From contig PEVN01000373.1 of assembly GCA_002779825.1 (NCBI GenBank), positions 1-36,526 of the forward strand: DNA of 36,526 bases. The letters are read 5' to 3'. The number at the start of each line of letters is the position of its first letter. Within the stretch, counting starts at the first letter, position 1. The notes under the pieces were generated by a model. The model was not told the DNA's origin and made no database searches. It saw only the letters and a program-made list of their open reading frames with translations. Below, piece by piece: positions 22,477 to 27,690 of this stretch. The position numbers were made by a program, and so were the translations under genes. The DNA comes from Armatimonadetes bacterium CG06_land_8_20_14_3_00_66_21 (GTDB lineage: Bacteria; Armatimonadota; Abditibacteriia; CG2-30-66-41).

Positions 22477-23790
22477 TCACCCAACCACCCCCGGAATCAC
22501 CCCACCATCATTCCGCACTGCCGCCTTGAACGGGTGATCCACCAGCCGGGGCGCGCCGGGCACCGTCTGCGGACCGCAGCCGCACGGGTAGTCGGTGGCG
22601 GTGTAGCCGAGCTTGTCCTTGAACGCCGACCACATCCGGAAGTTCTCGGTCGAGAGCGACACGGGGATGTCGCTGTTCCACTTGCGGATCTCGGTCAGAT
22701 GATGGTCGTAGATCTCCGCGCGCACCCGGTGCGGGAAAGGCTTCGCGATGGTGTCCTTGACCTCGTCCCGCTGGTCCTCCGCCACCTTCAGGAACTCCGG
22801 GTCGAGCTGGTCGAGCGGCAGCCGCCGCTTCATGTCGTCGACGTCCATCCACATGAAGCAGCAAAGACTGATGACATCGGGGTTCGTCCGCTCGAAGAGC
22901 AGCTTCGCTGTGTAGGCGGCCTCCTCGCGCCAGCCCTTCACCGGGATGATGGGCTTGAACTTGTAGCGGATCTGGTAACCGGCGTCCTGCGCCACGCGGG
23001 CCGCCTCGATGCGTTGCTCGGTCGTGCCGGTGAGCGGCTCGATCAACCGGCTCTGCGTCGGCCCACTGACGCTCCAGACAAGGATGGTGTGCCCATTGTG
23101 GTCGAAGTCGCGCATCCACTCGGTGTTCCAGGTCTTCGTGTGGATGATCAGGTAGCGGTTCTCCTGCTTGCCGAACCACTCGATCATCGGCCCCAAGCAG
23201 CCCAACTCCGGCTCCAGGCCGGGCGGGTCGCCGTCGTCGTCCAGGAGATAGGTGTACTGCCACGGATGCCGCTCCATGAGCTGCCCCAGCGTGCGGCAGT
23301 AGTCCTCCACGTTGACCATGGAGATCAGCAACCCGCCGAATCCGCAGTACAGGCACTTGTGCACGCAGCCGTTCTGGAAGTGGATGCGCCAGCACGGCCG
23401 GCACACCTTGTCGTTCCGGTTCGGATCCTCCGCTTGGTTGTAGCACGCCCACGAGAACGCCCCGCCGCCCAGCAAGGCATGTGCCGTCTGGCCGCTGAGG
23501 CTGCAGCCCTGCTCGTTGAGCCACTTCACTCGCTCCCCTTCCTTGCCGTCGAACCGGAACGTGTTGAACAGCAACGCCGGATCGCGGACCTCCTCCATCG
23601 TTCCCATGGTCCGTCGAGCAGCCAACAGCCCGCCGTCCTTGATAAGCGCCGGCAACTGCTCATCGGCGTACACAATCGGCTCGACCGGCTCCTTCAGCGC
23701 AGCCACGACGCGCTCTACGCGCTCGCGGTAGCTGTCGTTCGCCATTACGGTGTCGTTCACATAGACGACTGGGGGGCTGAGTTTATACAT
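22477..23790 (-). CDS. Radical SAM protein of the spore photoproduct lyase (SplB)-like family
   Basis: A 437-residue radical SAM enzyme. The cluster motif is C142-x3-C146-x2-C149 (NGCVHKCLYCGFGG), followed by YLLDDDGDPPGL, LIIHTKTWNTEWMRDFDHNGHTILVWSVSG and RIEAARVAQDAGYQIRYKFKPIIPVKGW. The last two parts are characteristic of the spore photoproduct lyase family, which repairs the thymine dimer of spores. No sporulation gene is nearby, so the role may be different. Additional cysteines at C130, C133 and a CGCG motif near the C-terminus could support another cluster or thiol chemistry. It lies 94 bases downstream of the TldD-family protease gene, same strand, probably co-transcribed. Confidence 0.8.
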   Translation of the reverse strand: MYKLSPPVVYVNDTVMANDSYRERVERVVAALKEPVEPIVYADEQLPALIKDGGLLAARRTMGTMEEVRDPALLFNTFRFDGKEGERVKWLNEQGCSLSGQTAHALLGGGAFSWACYNQAEDPNRNDKVCRPCWRIHFQNGCVHKCLYCGFGGLLISMVNVEDYCRTLGQLMERHPWQYTYLLDDDGDPPGLEPELGCLGPMIEWFGKQENRYLIIHTKTWNTEWMRDFDHNGHTILVWSVSGPTQSRLIEPLTGTTEQRIEAARVAQDAGYQIRYKFKPIIPVKGWREEAAYTAKLLFERTNPDVISLCCFMWMDVDDMKRRLPLDQLDPEFLKVAEDQRDEVKDTIAKPFPHRVRAEIYDHHLTEIRKWNSDIPVSLSTENFRMWSAFKDKLGYTATDYPCGCGPQTVPGAPRLVDHPFKAAVRNDGGVIPGVVG

Positions 23791-23884: not shown

Positions 23885-25330
23885 TCACCTCCGAAACGCC
23901 CCACCCACCTCCACCCCCCGAAACCGCGCTGGCGCGGCACCGTGCGTCATCTGCGAAATCTGCATCGGATCGCCTTTGCCGCAGTTGAGGACGCCGTTCG
24001 GCACCCAGAAGCGCTGGTCACAAATGGCGTCGCACGACCCCCAGAAGTCCGTGGTCAGCGACTGGTAGGTCACGTTCTTCAGCATGCCTGCCAGTCGGCC
24101 GTCGCGGATCCGCCAGAACGCATCGCCGCCGAACTGGAAGTTGCAGCGCATCTGGTCGATGCTGAAGCTGCCGTGCCCCTCGATGTAGATCCCGTCGCCC
24201 GTGTCGGCGAGCAGTTCGTCGAGGGCGAGTGGCGACGTGCCGGGCATCAGGCTCAGGTTCGGGATGCGGACGATGGGGATGCTGCTCCAGTGATCCGCCC
24301 GGCAGCCGCCGGTGCTCCGCGCCAACCCGATCTCGCCAGCGACTTCGCGGCTGGTGCTATAGCCGCTGAAGACGCCGTCCTTCACGATGTTCCACCGCTG
24401 CCCGGCGACCCCGTCGTCGTCGAAGCCGTGGGTCGCCAGCCCGCCCGGCAGCGTGTTGTCTGCCACGAAGTTGACAACCTCTGAACCGTACTGCAGCCGG
24501 TTCAGCTTGTCGGGCGTGGCGAAGCTCCGCCCGGCCAGGCTCTCCTCGAAGCCTAACGCCCGATCCAGTTCGGTGGCGTGCCCGACGGACTCATGCATGG
24601 TCAGCGCCAGGTTCAGCGGGTCCAGCACCAGATCATACACGCCCGGTTCGCAGTCCGGCGCGTGCAGGTGCTCCACTGCCTGCTGCGCCACGCGTTCGGT
24701 GTTGGCGAGGAGGTCGTCCGCGTCAACGTTCTCGAATCCGAGCGTCCGCCCCGGCGGGTTGTAGCTGCGTGACCGCGCGTCATGCTCACCCACCGCCGTC
24801 GCCATATAGCCGGCGTTGGTGGTGACCACGTCGCTCGCCAACTCGGCCCCCTCCGAGTTCAGGAACGCCCGGACGCACCGGCGCAGCGTCATGTGCGCAT
24901 TCGCCTTCGAGACGCCCTTCTGCCTAAGCAGTCGGTCGTTGATCTCCAACAGTAGCCCCACCTTCCGGTCGACGCCGACCGTGAACGGATCCACCGTGCA
25001 CTCGCTGGCGAACCGCTCCCTGCGCGGCGGCTCCGGTACCAGTTCCACCGGCTTCGGCATCAGCCGAGCGCTTGCCTTCGCCACTTCCACCGCCTCCGCC
25101 GCCAGCGACATAGCACCCTCCGCACGCTCCACCGCCCCCGCCGCGAAGCCCCAGGCGCCGTTGACCAACACCCGCACCCCAATCCCCCGGCTCTCGTCAT
25201 CCGAGATCCCGCTCACCCGCGCCTCCTCGGCGGACAGGTTCTGCGAGCGATAGGTGCACGCCCGCGCGTCAGCGTACTGCGCGCCACGAGCCGTGGCTGT
25301 GTCCAACGCAACCTTCGCGAGATCCATCAT
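23885..25330 (-). CDS. TldD/PmbA-family zinc metalloprotease (TldD-like)
   Basis: A 481-residue protein with the TldD zinc motif HESVGH (246-251, HExxxH, followed by TELD) and the C-terminal metal-ligand Cys in LNCGKGDPMQISQM. TldD with its partner TldE (PmbA) forms a protease that degrades unstructured peptides and matures microcin B17-type peptides; the two are usually encoded separately, and no TldE partner is visible here. ATG 25330 was chosen because AAGGTG lies about 10 bases upstream and the preceding frame has no coding character. It is the first gene of the reverse-strand run that continues with the SplB-like radical SAM protein. Confidence 0.9.
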   Translation of the reverse strand: MMDLAKVALDTATARGAQYADARACTYRSQNLSAEEARVSGISDDESRGIGVRVLVNGAWGFAAGAVERAEGAMSLAAEAVEVAKASARLMPKPVELVPEPPRRERFASECTVDPFTVGVDRKVGLLLEINDRLLRQKGVSKANAHMTLRRCVRAFLNSEGAELASDVVTTNAGYMATAVGEHDARSRSYNPPGRTLGFENVDADDLLANTERVAQQAVEHLHAPDCEPGVYDLVLDPLNLALTMHESVGHATELDRALGFEESLAGRSFATPDKLNRLQYGSEVVNFVADNTLPGGLATHGFDDDGVAGQRWNIVKDGVFSGYSTSREVAGEIGLARSTGGCRADHWSSIPIVRIPNLSLMPGTSPLALDELLADTGDGIYIEGHGSFSIDQMRCNFQFGGDAFWRIRDGRLAGMLKNVTYQSLTTDFWGSCDAICDQRFWVPNGVLNCGKGDPMQISQMTHGAAPARFRGVEVGGAFRR

Positions 25331-25360
25331 GGTGTTTGTCACCTTCGGAGCAGTTTGATG

Positions 25361-25474
25361 GGCGGAAAGATGCCTGGCAGAAAGATGCCAAGGGCTGGAG
25401 AGCCTTCGGTCGAGAATGAGCGGGCGGCCCTCCCACCCGCCGCAAGGCGGTCCGTGTGCCGTCATCTTTCTGCC
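25361..25474. repeat. Direct and inverted copies of GGCAGAAAGATG upstream of tldD
   Basis: GGCGGAAAGATGCC (25361-25374) and GGCAGAAAGATGCC (25376-25389) are 15-base-spaced direct repeats. An inverted copy, CATCTTTCTGCC, lies at 25463-25474. The set sits between the TldD start and the CIRCE-controlled promoter. It could be an operator or a short dispersed repeat. Confidence 0.6.
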
Positions 25475-25515
25475 CGCTTCCCCAAACTCCTCCCCTCGCC
25501 TGCATCCGCCGCCCC

Positions 25516-25544
25516 TTGCCACCCTCCCGAACATTGTGTAGAAT
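25516..25544 (+). promoter_or_regulatory. Sigma70-type promoter of the FmdB-like gene
   Basis: TTGCCA (25516-25521) and TAGAAT (25539-25544) are separated by 17 bases, a strong housekeeping promoter match. The CIRCE operator begins at the last base of the -10 box, as is common for HrcA-controlled promoters. Confidence 0.7.
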
Positions 25545-25570
25545 TAGCACTCGTAGACAACGAGTGCCAA
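25544..25570 (+). promoter_or_regulatory. CIRCE element (HrcA operator)
   Basis: TTAGCACTC (25544-25552), nine bases, then GAGTGCCAA (25562-25570). The consensus is TTAGCACTC-N9-GAGTGCTAA, so 17 of 18 arm bases match and the spacer length is exact. The heat-shock repressor HrcA binds this element when refolded by GroE. It overlaps the start region of a good promoter that reads toward the FmdB-like gene 170 bases downstream. Confidence 0.85.
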
Positions 25571-25610
25571 GCTGGCACATTGACTGTAGTGACAGCTTAC
25601 ACGGGCGATC

Positions 25611-25712
25611 TCACCACGGAGAAGCCCGGTGGGTTTCAGGAGTCGCGGAGTCCACTGCGAAGGGCGAGAAGTGCCAGTCAGAAGCTCCGCGATCTCCGTG
25701 ACTCCGTGGTGA
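25611..25712 (+). repeat. Nested inverted repeats in the leader of the FmdB-like gene
   Basis: TCACCACGGAG (25611-25621) pairs perfectly with CTCCGTGGTGA (25702-25712). Inside are GAAGCCC/GGGTTTC (25621-25637) and GTCGCGGAG/CTCCGCGAT (25642-25650 with 25685-25693, one G-U). The leader RNA could fold into a three-stem structure, or the unit may be a small palindromic repeat element. Confidence 0.6.
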
Positions 25713-25740
25713 CACCGCCATCACCGAGGTGAGGAACCAA

Positions 25741-26097
25741 ATGCCGCTCTACGAATACGAATGCCGGAAGTGCGGGAATCGATTCGAGATCCAGCAAAAG
25801 GCAACCGAGAAGCAGCTCCGCAAGTGCACCCACGTGAACGGCGGCAAGAAGGCCTGCGGCGGCGACCTCAAGAAGCTCTTCTTCCCAGCCGTTATCATCT
25901 TCAAGGGATCCGGCTGGCACATCAAGGACTACGCCAAGGGCGGCGGAAACGGCGGCAAGCCCAAGTCGGAGAGCACAGAGCCGTTGGGTTCGGAGTCGAA
26001 GTCGAGCACGGAGACGAAGTCCAGTTCAGACAGCAAGTCCGGGTCGGAGAGCAAGTCTGAGAAGAAGAAGGAGACGGTGTCGGCCTCGAAGGACTGA
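25741..26097 (+). CDS. FmdB-family zinc-ribbon protein with Ser/Lys-rich tail
   Basis: A 118-residue protein starting MPLYEYECRKCGNRFEI, the typical FmdB regulatory-family zinc ribbon, with zinc cysteines at C8 and C11 and a second pair around C29 and C39 (LRKC, KACGG). The ribbon ends with KKLFFPAVIIFKGSGWHIKDY, also family-typical. Residues about 70-118 form a low-complexity tail of Ser, Lys and Glu. The family's role is unclear; some members sit near formamidase or translation genes. ATG 25741 is preceded by GAGGTGAGG. Its promoter region carries a CIRCE element and a structured leader, so expression may rise on heat or protein-folding stress. Confidence 0.88.
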   Translation: MPLYEYECRKCGNRFEIQQKATEKQLRKCTHVNGGKKACGGDLKKLFFPAVIIFKGSGWHIKDYAKGGGNGGKPKSESTEPLGSESKSSTETKSSSDSKSGSESKSEKKKETVSASKD

Positions 26098-26649
26098 CGT
26101 TCCGCAGGCGGTCGAGATCGAGGGTCTGAACCGCGAGGCGGCGACGGACGCGGGGCAGGGCAGGGATCCCGCCGGGCGGCGTTCTGGTGCACGGAGACCC
26201 CGTGCTGGCTCTCCGCCGACTTACTCACGGGCCCGTTGTCCCGCCCTGACTGCCACCCACGTCCGCCTCCCGGCGGCTCCGTGGGCCCATGGTCACCGGG
26301 GCCCCCGCGGTACTTCGCCCGCCCCTGCACTCGCGACGACGCGAAGTGCCTTGTCTTCCGCCGATGGCGGGCTGTGCCACATGACCAAACCCGCAGCCCA
26401 TCTCGGCGCTGGGCGCCTGCTGTTGGCTGTTGGCCGTGGTAGAATCGCTGCCCGGCGTGCCCGCGAAGTTCTGACGCGCAAGAGAGGCTCTGGGGGCGCC
26501 GGCTTCCCAGAGGGTGCGACGAGCTGTCCAAACCCACGGCATCCATCCGCCGTGCCATCCTGCCAATCCTGTCCCTCCCGTCCGGCTATGTGACGACTCA
26601 CGCTGCCTGCCTTCAGTGACGTCCCCTCAAGCGTGACAGCGAATCGCCA
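26098..26649. other. Intergenic region without a recognised gene
   Basis: The 552 bases between the FmdB-like and URO-D-like genes hold open frames on both strands, but none has a credible start, ribosome site or family motif. The only signal I see is the TG-extended -10 box at 26437-26445, which could serve the next gene with a leader of about 200 bases. Confidence 0.4.
26437..26445 (+). promoter_or_regulatory. Extended -10 promoter element (TGGTAGAAT)
   Basis: TGGTAGAAT is a TG-extended -10 box with no convincing -35 box. The same GTGGTAGAATnGC context recurs on the reverse strand upstream of the P1B-ATPase gene. The leader to the URO-D gene start would be about 200 bases. Confidence 0.35.
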
Positions 26650-27690
26650 ATGACAACAGACGTCCCCCAGCGACTCAACGCCCTGGACTTGGTGTCCGTT
26701 CGGGAGCATCACTTCCGCCGCTTGGTCGCTCTCTTCGAGGGCGCGGTGCCGGATCCTGTCTTCGTCCTCTGCGGGATCGTCCGCCACACCAGCGAGGTCC
26801 TCGCCAACTGGGAGCAGTGGCTGGATGAGTCGCTGGAGTGGCTGGCGGGGCAGGTGGACGCGGCGACGGACCGGGAGGTCTTCCGGCCGTTGGCTGTGAA
26901 CCACGACCCCGACGGCGTGCACTTCGTCGATCACCTCTTCGGGGCGGACGTGTCCCAGATGGAGGACCGATCGTGGCAGGTGCGGCTGCTGGAGACGCCG
27001 GTCGGTCAGCTCGACCGGCCGGACTTCGCCGTGAACGCTACCTGGCGGCAGACGCAGGCGTTTGCGCGCGCCTTCGTAGAGCGCGGAGGGCGCGGGGTGA
27101 TCCTCGGAACGCCCACGCTTTCGAGCGCGCTGAATGTCGCAGTGAACCTGTACGGCCAGCGGATTTTCGAAGCCCTGCTGCTCGAGCCCGAGGCGGCCAA
27201 GCACGACCTGCGCGTGATCAACGAAGTGATCTGCGACCTCCATCGCTGGTACCTGGATGCGGTTCCGGCCGAGCAACTCCAGTGCATCGTGCCGGGCGGC
27301 CGGCGCCAGCCGCCGGGGTGCGGCCAACTGTGTGGGTGCGCCTGCCAAGTGCTGTCCGCCGAGCAGTACCGGGAGTTCGTCGCGCCGCTGGACGAGGAGT
27401 TGCTGTCGCTCTACCCCAACGGCGGCATGATCCATCTGTGTGGCGTGCACACGCAACACGTCCCGGTGTGGCGGGAGATGAGCGCACTGCGGGCGGTGCA
27501 GGTGAACGACCGGGCCGCGGAGGAGCTGGCGCTCTACTTCGGCGGGCTCCGCGAGAATCAGCTTGTGTATGTCGACCCGTGCGCGGAGATGCCGGTCGAG
27601 CACGCTCTGGAGATCGCGGGCGGGAGGCGGTTGGTGCTGGCGGCGGACCTGAAGGAGGCACCGCGGTTCCCGCCGGCCGCTCTTGAGTGA
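26650..27690 (+). CDS. URO-D family protein with zinc-type H-x-C...C motif (methyltransferase-like)
   Basis: A 346-residue URO-D superfamily protein. It carries MIHLCGVHTQHVPVW with an H-x-C pair, and a further Cys in YVDPCAEMPVEHAL. This matches the H-x-C-xn-C zinc site of methylcobamide:coenzyme M methyltransferases such as MtaA, which activate a thiol for methyl transfer. HemE signature residues are absent. A Cys cluster, GCGQLCGCACQVL, just before the YREFVAP helix is unusual. A methyl- or dealkylation reaction on a corrinoid or thiol is therefore more likely than porphyrin decarboxylation, but no corrinoid protein or corrinoid-dependent partner is visible nearby. It is followed by a promoter for the secreted repeat protein. 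Confidence 0.75.
   Translation: MTTDVPQRLNALDLVSVREHHFRRLVALFEGAVPDPVFVLCGIVRHTSEVLANWEQWLDESLEWLAGQVDAATDREVFRPLAVNHDPDGVHFVDHLFGADVSQMEDRSWQVRLLETPVGQLDRPDFAVNATWRQTQAFARAFVERGGRGVILGTPTLSSALNVAVNLYGQRIFEALLLEPEAAKHDLRVINEVICDLHRWYLDAVPAEQLQCIVPGGRRQPPGCGQLCGCACQVLSAEQYREFVAPLDEELLSLYPNGGMIHLCGVHTQHVPVWREMSALRAVQVNDRAAEELALYFGGLRENQLVYVDPCAEMPVEHALEIAGGRRLVLAADLKEAPRFPPAALE

Follow-up and report, generated by a model that had tools for sequence, protein, structure and literature searches.

What does a CIRCE, the operator of the heat-shock repressor HrcA, do upstream of a short gene for an FmdB-family zinc ribbon, and does the same arrangement occur in other genomes? The question arises from a stretch of 36,526 nucleotides, here called the window, in which the first-pass annotation had described a 17-of-18 CIRCE match with an exact nine-base spacer at the -10 box of a TTGCCA-N17-TAGAAT promoter, followed by a small FmdB-family zinc ribbon with a Ser/Lys tail. 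Both descriptions were borne out. The operator at 25544-25570 (full letters TTAGCACTCGTAGACAACGAGTGCCAA; no strand assigned) reads TTAGCACTC-N9-GAGTGCCAA and agrees with the inverted repeat TTAGCACTC-N9-GAGTGCTAA at 17 of 18 consensus positions, with one mismatch and the exact N9 spacer. When up to three mismatches are allowed it is the sole match in the window, while shuffled sequences give a mean of 0.01. The promoter scan of positions 25300-26700 also returned one site, a sigma-70-like TTGCCA-17-TAGAAT at 25516-25544 on the + strand (0.1 in shuffles), composed of a -35 box at 25516-25521 and a -10 box at 25539-25544 that jointly match at 10 of 12 positions with a spacer of 17. The CIRCE shares its first base with the 3' end of the -10 box, and the predicted HrcA site covers the expected transcription start near 25551. 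The operator thus overlaps the promoter, and as judged from these predicted elements its placement is that of an ordinary repressor site. As to an early transcript end, which the annotation had considered, a sequence scan found no terminator-like site on the + strand between the CIRCE and the gene.

HrcA itself is encoded in the genome (PF01628, 166 bits), as the annotation had presupposed, in an hrcA-grpE-dnaJ cluster whose flanking genes, named by eye, we take to be mnmA and prmA (mnmA-hrcA-grpE-dnaJ-prmA). The assembly is an 8.29-Mb metagenome-assembled genome (MAG) in 578 contigs, and at up to three mismatches it contains two CIRCEs, one ahead of the zinc-ribbon gene and the other 56 bp ahead of groES-groEL; the reversed-pattern control gave 0. 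Further CIRCEs may lie outside the assembled contigs. No CIRCE stands ahead of this genome's hrcA, grpE, or dnaK. Weak operators at these three genes were considered and ruled out, the best candidates having 7-9 mismatches (8 for dnaK, 7 for hrcA). In 20 related genomes scanned, every CIRCE lies 5' of groES/groEL or of a gene of the zinc-ribbon type discussed below.

The gene downstream (25741-26097, + strand) runs from an ATG at 25741 to a stop ending at 26097 and is preceded, 6 bases 5' of the ATG, by the Shine-Dalgarno-like sequence AGGTGAGG (25727-25734, + strand). Its 118-aa product belongs to the FmdB family (TIGR02605 at 48.3 bits against a cut-off of 31.3, and PF09723). The profiles, the alignment, and the structural model all place a four-cysteine ribbon in the N-terminal 50 residues or so, with cysteines C8, C11, C29, and C39 and an FKGSGW motif at 54-59; C8, C11, C29, C39, G58, and D63 are invariant across 33 aligned sequences. 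In the AlphaFold model residues 1-55 form a confident ribbon (pLDDT about 90), and residues 61-118, a hydrophilic tail rich in Ser, Lys, and Glu, have neither helix nor strand (pLDDT 53-66). The annotation had called the family uncharacterised, which is wrong. According to Becker et al. (2020; PMC7448276), Rv0991c of Mycobacterium tuberculosis, named Ruc, shares direct HrcA repression with the groES/groEL genes, is heat-induced, binds zinc, carries ribbon cysteines C8, C11, C29, and C32 and a disordered tail, and once oxidised prevents protein aggregation; it is thus a redox-activated chaperone. The same study puts the share of Armatimonadetes genomes with a homologue at 73% and notes homologues close to chaperone genes in several phyla; in the sections consulted it reports no CIRCE outside mycobacteria (PMC7448276). 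Judged by profile score, the gene at 25741 is the best match to Ruc in its genome: against a profile of actinobacterial CIRCE-linked proteins the window protein reaches 53.8 bits and its four paralogues reach 29-30. We therefore refer to it as ruc.

Would the encoded protein also act as a chaperone? The gene may be HrcA-regulated and its product serve otherwise, for example as a zinc-responsive or transcription-linked adaptor whose ribbon contacts protein or DNA. FmdB proteins were first annotated as putative regulators, which counts toward such a role, as do a fourth cysteine moved by seven residues relative to Ruc (the first three positions being identical, with the fourth at 39 instead of 32) and a tail of unrelated sequence. 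Many relatives carry a shorter inserted loop ahead of the fourth cysteine. The best profile match is nevertheless to the Ruc-type branch, the modeled protein has the same two-part architecture as Ruc, and in this genome the operator is common to groESL alone, and a non-chaperone role is in our view unlikely. We consider it very probable that the locus is a single-gene heat-shock unit, an HrcA-controlled orthologue of Ruc.

FmdB relatives were detected in 245 of 291 genomes of the window's phylum, Armatimonadota, and up to 450 bp upstream was inspected for 87 FmdB gene rows. Genes with a [FY]KGxG[FWY]-like motif were classed as Ruc-type; 70 non-redundant genes whose upstream sequence spanned 200 bp or more were kept, and CIRCEs with up to two mismatches were accepted. 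Consistent with what the annotation had expected of related genomes, a CIRCE is found upstream of 31 of the 70, in 11 of 33 sampled families, although the sample was chosen via similarity to the window protein and the fraction is no phylum-wide estimate. A CIRCE occurred in 0 of 82 stretches of equal length taken 3' of the start codon, and the reversed CIRCE pattern gave three sites in 61 relatives. The site is present at 7/7 genes in family f23, 6/6 in f28, 7/8 in f30, 3/4 in f12, and 2/2 in both f9 and f45, and one additional CIRCE-ruc case (G057) was missed by the motif filter. Among non-Ruc paralogues 2 of 12 have a CIRCE, both being tandem second genes that share the first gene's operator. 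Two loci of family f6 (L081 and L083) have two FmdB genes in tandem behind one CIRCE, the second copy being without the FKGSGF motif. In the window's own class, the Ruc-type fmdB genes of families f2, f3, and f4 show no CIRCE at up to four mismatches within 450 bp upstream (218 bp in one), so the link is not conserved nearby and its distribution is patchy. The proposal that the family as such belongs to the HrcA regulon stands, on predicted operators, for the Ruc-type branch in part of the lineages, and falls for FmdB proteins in general.

Where the operator is present in relatives, its position relative to the promoter falls into more than one type. In the window and in f9 the CIRCE lies at the promoter core or just 3' of it. 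In f12, f23, f28, f30, and f45 the CIRCE precedes a strong ruc promoter: counted from the CIRCE start, the -10 box begins after 64-67 bp at 21 of the 25 loci, the other 4 showing 54-56 bp, although these 25 loci are related by descent and hence are not independent. The CIRCE and the -35 box are separated by 14-17 or 4-6 bp, lengths that differ by one helical turn. In one genome (G060) a second TTGACT follows directly 3' of the CIRCE; there the promoter scan puts the gap at 14. The 14-17-bp gaps share 27.6% sequence identity between families, versus 26.7% after shuffling, which is chance level and means that the length has been kept and the sequence has not. The loci with such phased upstream CIRCEs include L047, L048, L054, L057, L058, L060, L063, L065, L066, L118, L120, L130, L135, L137, and L148. 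The majority of groESL CIRCEs in these genomes begin 4-19 bp past the point where the -10 box starts, which is the canonical position; a few are without a clear promoter or have one further downstream.

The phase-locked upstream CIRCE raises the question of how HrcA acts there. The simplest reading of the sequences is that HrcA acts on the ruc promoter from the phased upstream site, probably by contacting RNA polymerase. More broadly, and at somewhat less than even confidence, we propose that Zipacnadia-type Armatimonadota use a second, non-canonical HrcA geometry at ruc, in which the CIRCE is helix-phased close ahead of the -35 box, centred near -65 or -55, so that a bound dimer could touch RNA polymerase instead of blocking it. 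HrcA would then repress ruc through contact, or might even activate it, with groESL repressed in the ordinary manner. The geometry in the window is the ordinary one.

A CIRCE in a divergent intergenic region could also serve the other gene, which is tldD in the window and a NIF3 or coiled-coil gene in relatives, with its placement ahead of ruc being incidental. In f12, f23, f45, and some others the CIRCE is often close to a divergent NIF3-type gene, 14-29 bp from its start, as would be expected if it served that gene. Yet the divergent gene varies (tldD, NIF3, coiled-coil protein, and others) and its distance to the CIRCE ranges from about 0 to 145 bp, whereas the distance from the CIRCE to the ruc promoter is fixed across spacers of chance identity; a promoter-like match toward the divergent gene occurs at only 1 of 32 loci. 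In the window the tldD-type metalloprotease gene (23885-25330, - strand) starts about 214 bp away, the sole promoter aims at ruc, and TldD was not found at any other armatimonadotal locus examined. We consider service to the neighbour quite improbable, placed tldD outside the regulatory unit, and rejected it as the CIRCE target because the divergent linkage is not conserved in the phylum. Another gene in the window (22477-23790, - strand) encodes a divergent protein weakly akin to spore photoproduct lyase (PF20903), far under the equivalog cut-offs. That the window CIRCE is a functionless chance palindrome, with real CIRCE-ruc units in other lineages only, is hardly credible: the nearest sampled relatives (f2-f4) lack the site and the window copy is thus unsupported by close orthologues, but the expectation is 0.01 per window, the whole-genome reversed-pattern control is empty, and the site sits exactly on the sole promoter before a gene that has a CIRCE in 10 other sampled families.

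The preferred reading, an HrcA-controlled ruc unit, has also to accommodate a long leader, as the CIRCE-ATG distance of 170 bp in the window exceeds that of most relatives. The 5' UTR contains a palindrome at 25611-25712 (no strand assigned; ends TCACCACGGAG ... CTCCGTGGTGA) that is part of a dispersed intergenic repeat. Pieces of it recur elsewhere in the genome (L310, L311, and L312, at least the last as a similar inverted repeat), and the 11 bases at its end are present 19 times versus 2 in the control. Without the 102 bp of the palindrome the distance would be near that of most relatives, and the palindrome probably accounts for the extra length. An RNA thermometer in this 5' UTR was considered in view of the strong fold (z -3.2) and rejected, since the dispersed palindrome explains the fold and the Shine-Dalgarno sequence is outside the main stem.

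Beyond the phylum, 84,980 species genomes were scanned with a composite pattern consisting of an exact CIRCE core, 55-115 bp, and an FmdB start. The CIRCE-to-fmdB architecture was found on at least 119 contigs, where a rough estimate puts the chance expectation well below 1; the pattern required a G between gaps and an exact GCACTC/GAGTGC core, and the counts are therefore lower bounds. Among the matches listed are about 93 from Actinomycetota (including Arthrobacter, Cellulomonas, Promicromonospora, Nitriliruptoraceae, and Acidimicrobiia), 12 from Armatimonadota or WS1, 8 from Chloroflexota, 2 from Bacillota, and 1 from Polyangiaceae. When the proteins of the first 80 loci were translated, nearly all were Ruc-type; both Bacillota proteins were not. 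At seven actinobacterial loci, mostly of Acidimicrobiia (L207, L221, L229, L234, L242, L251, and L308), a tldD-like gene lies within a few kb of the CIRCE-fmdB unit, as tldD also neighbours ruc in the window. At L191, L208, L249, L256, and L258, Chloroflexota among them, and at L154 of f42, a TTGACA-like -35 box stands in or beside the nine-base spacer of the CIRCE; in f42 and several Chloroflexota, operator and promoter appear to be fused, a third arrangement.

HrcA control of ruc in M. tuberculosis is already known (PMC7448276); what is new is that the CIRCE-ruc pairing, as predicted by pattern, recurs in Actinomycetota, Chloroflexota, and Armatimonadota, so that the operator link proven in mycobacteria extends across these phyla. 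In the open-licence papers searched, neither the cross-phylum conservation nor the upstream operator geometry was found described, and a tie of FmdB to CIRCE and HrcA was not found under the family name; it is known under Rv0991c. For the window locus, that HrcA binds and represses, that heat induces the gene, and that the product is a chaperone are all predictions from sequence. In unstressed cells HrcA would sit on the CIRCE across the -10/+1 region and block RNA polymerase; upon heat or unfolded-protein stress HrcA would be titrated or inactivated, and ruc would be transcribed together with groESL. The product would be a four-cysteine zinc ribbon bearing a disordered, charged Ser/Lys tail, and by analogy to M. 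tuberculosis Ruc its oxidation may release zinc and yield a holdase that needs no ATP and cooperates with the DnaK system. With ruc and groESL as the only CIRCE-marked pair, the genome makes the link between heat-shock control and a redox holdase testable outside M. tuberculosis.

Several known systems resemble parts of this locus. For the upstream CIRCEs of f12, f23, f28, f30, and f45, Helicobacter pylori HspR, with operators centred at -72 and -117 (PMC6032397), is a precedent for a heat-shock repressor bound upstream of the core promoter, although it is a different protein with a different operator, and HrcA in that organism overlaps the core promoter (PMC6032397). Hsp33 (HslO) resembles Ruc in principle, having a zinc-cysteine redox switch and a disordered client-binding part, but it is dissimilar in sequence and is a functional analogue rather than a relative (PMC7448276). 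The classical HrcA/CIRCE regulon (groESL, dnaK, hrcA) shares with the window the canonical inverted repeat with N9 over the expected start, and here too groESL has a copy, the second in the genome; it differs in that dnaK and hrcA are without CIRCE in this genome and ruc is the sole other target found. The closest counterpart is Ruc itself. It differs in its fourth cysteine (C29-x2-C32, against C29-x9-C39 in the window protein) and in its tail, to which the Ser/Lys/Glu-rich tail of the window protein is unrelated in sequence, and in comparison with Ruc the sigma-70-like window promoter has no sign of SigH. The positions of C8, C11, and C29 agree in the two proteins; like the window protein, Ruc has an FKG motif that ends the ribbon and a hydrophilic disordered tail, and its promoter is under HrcA in a regulon common with groESL, as we predict for the window gene.
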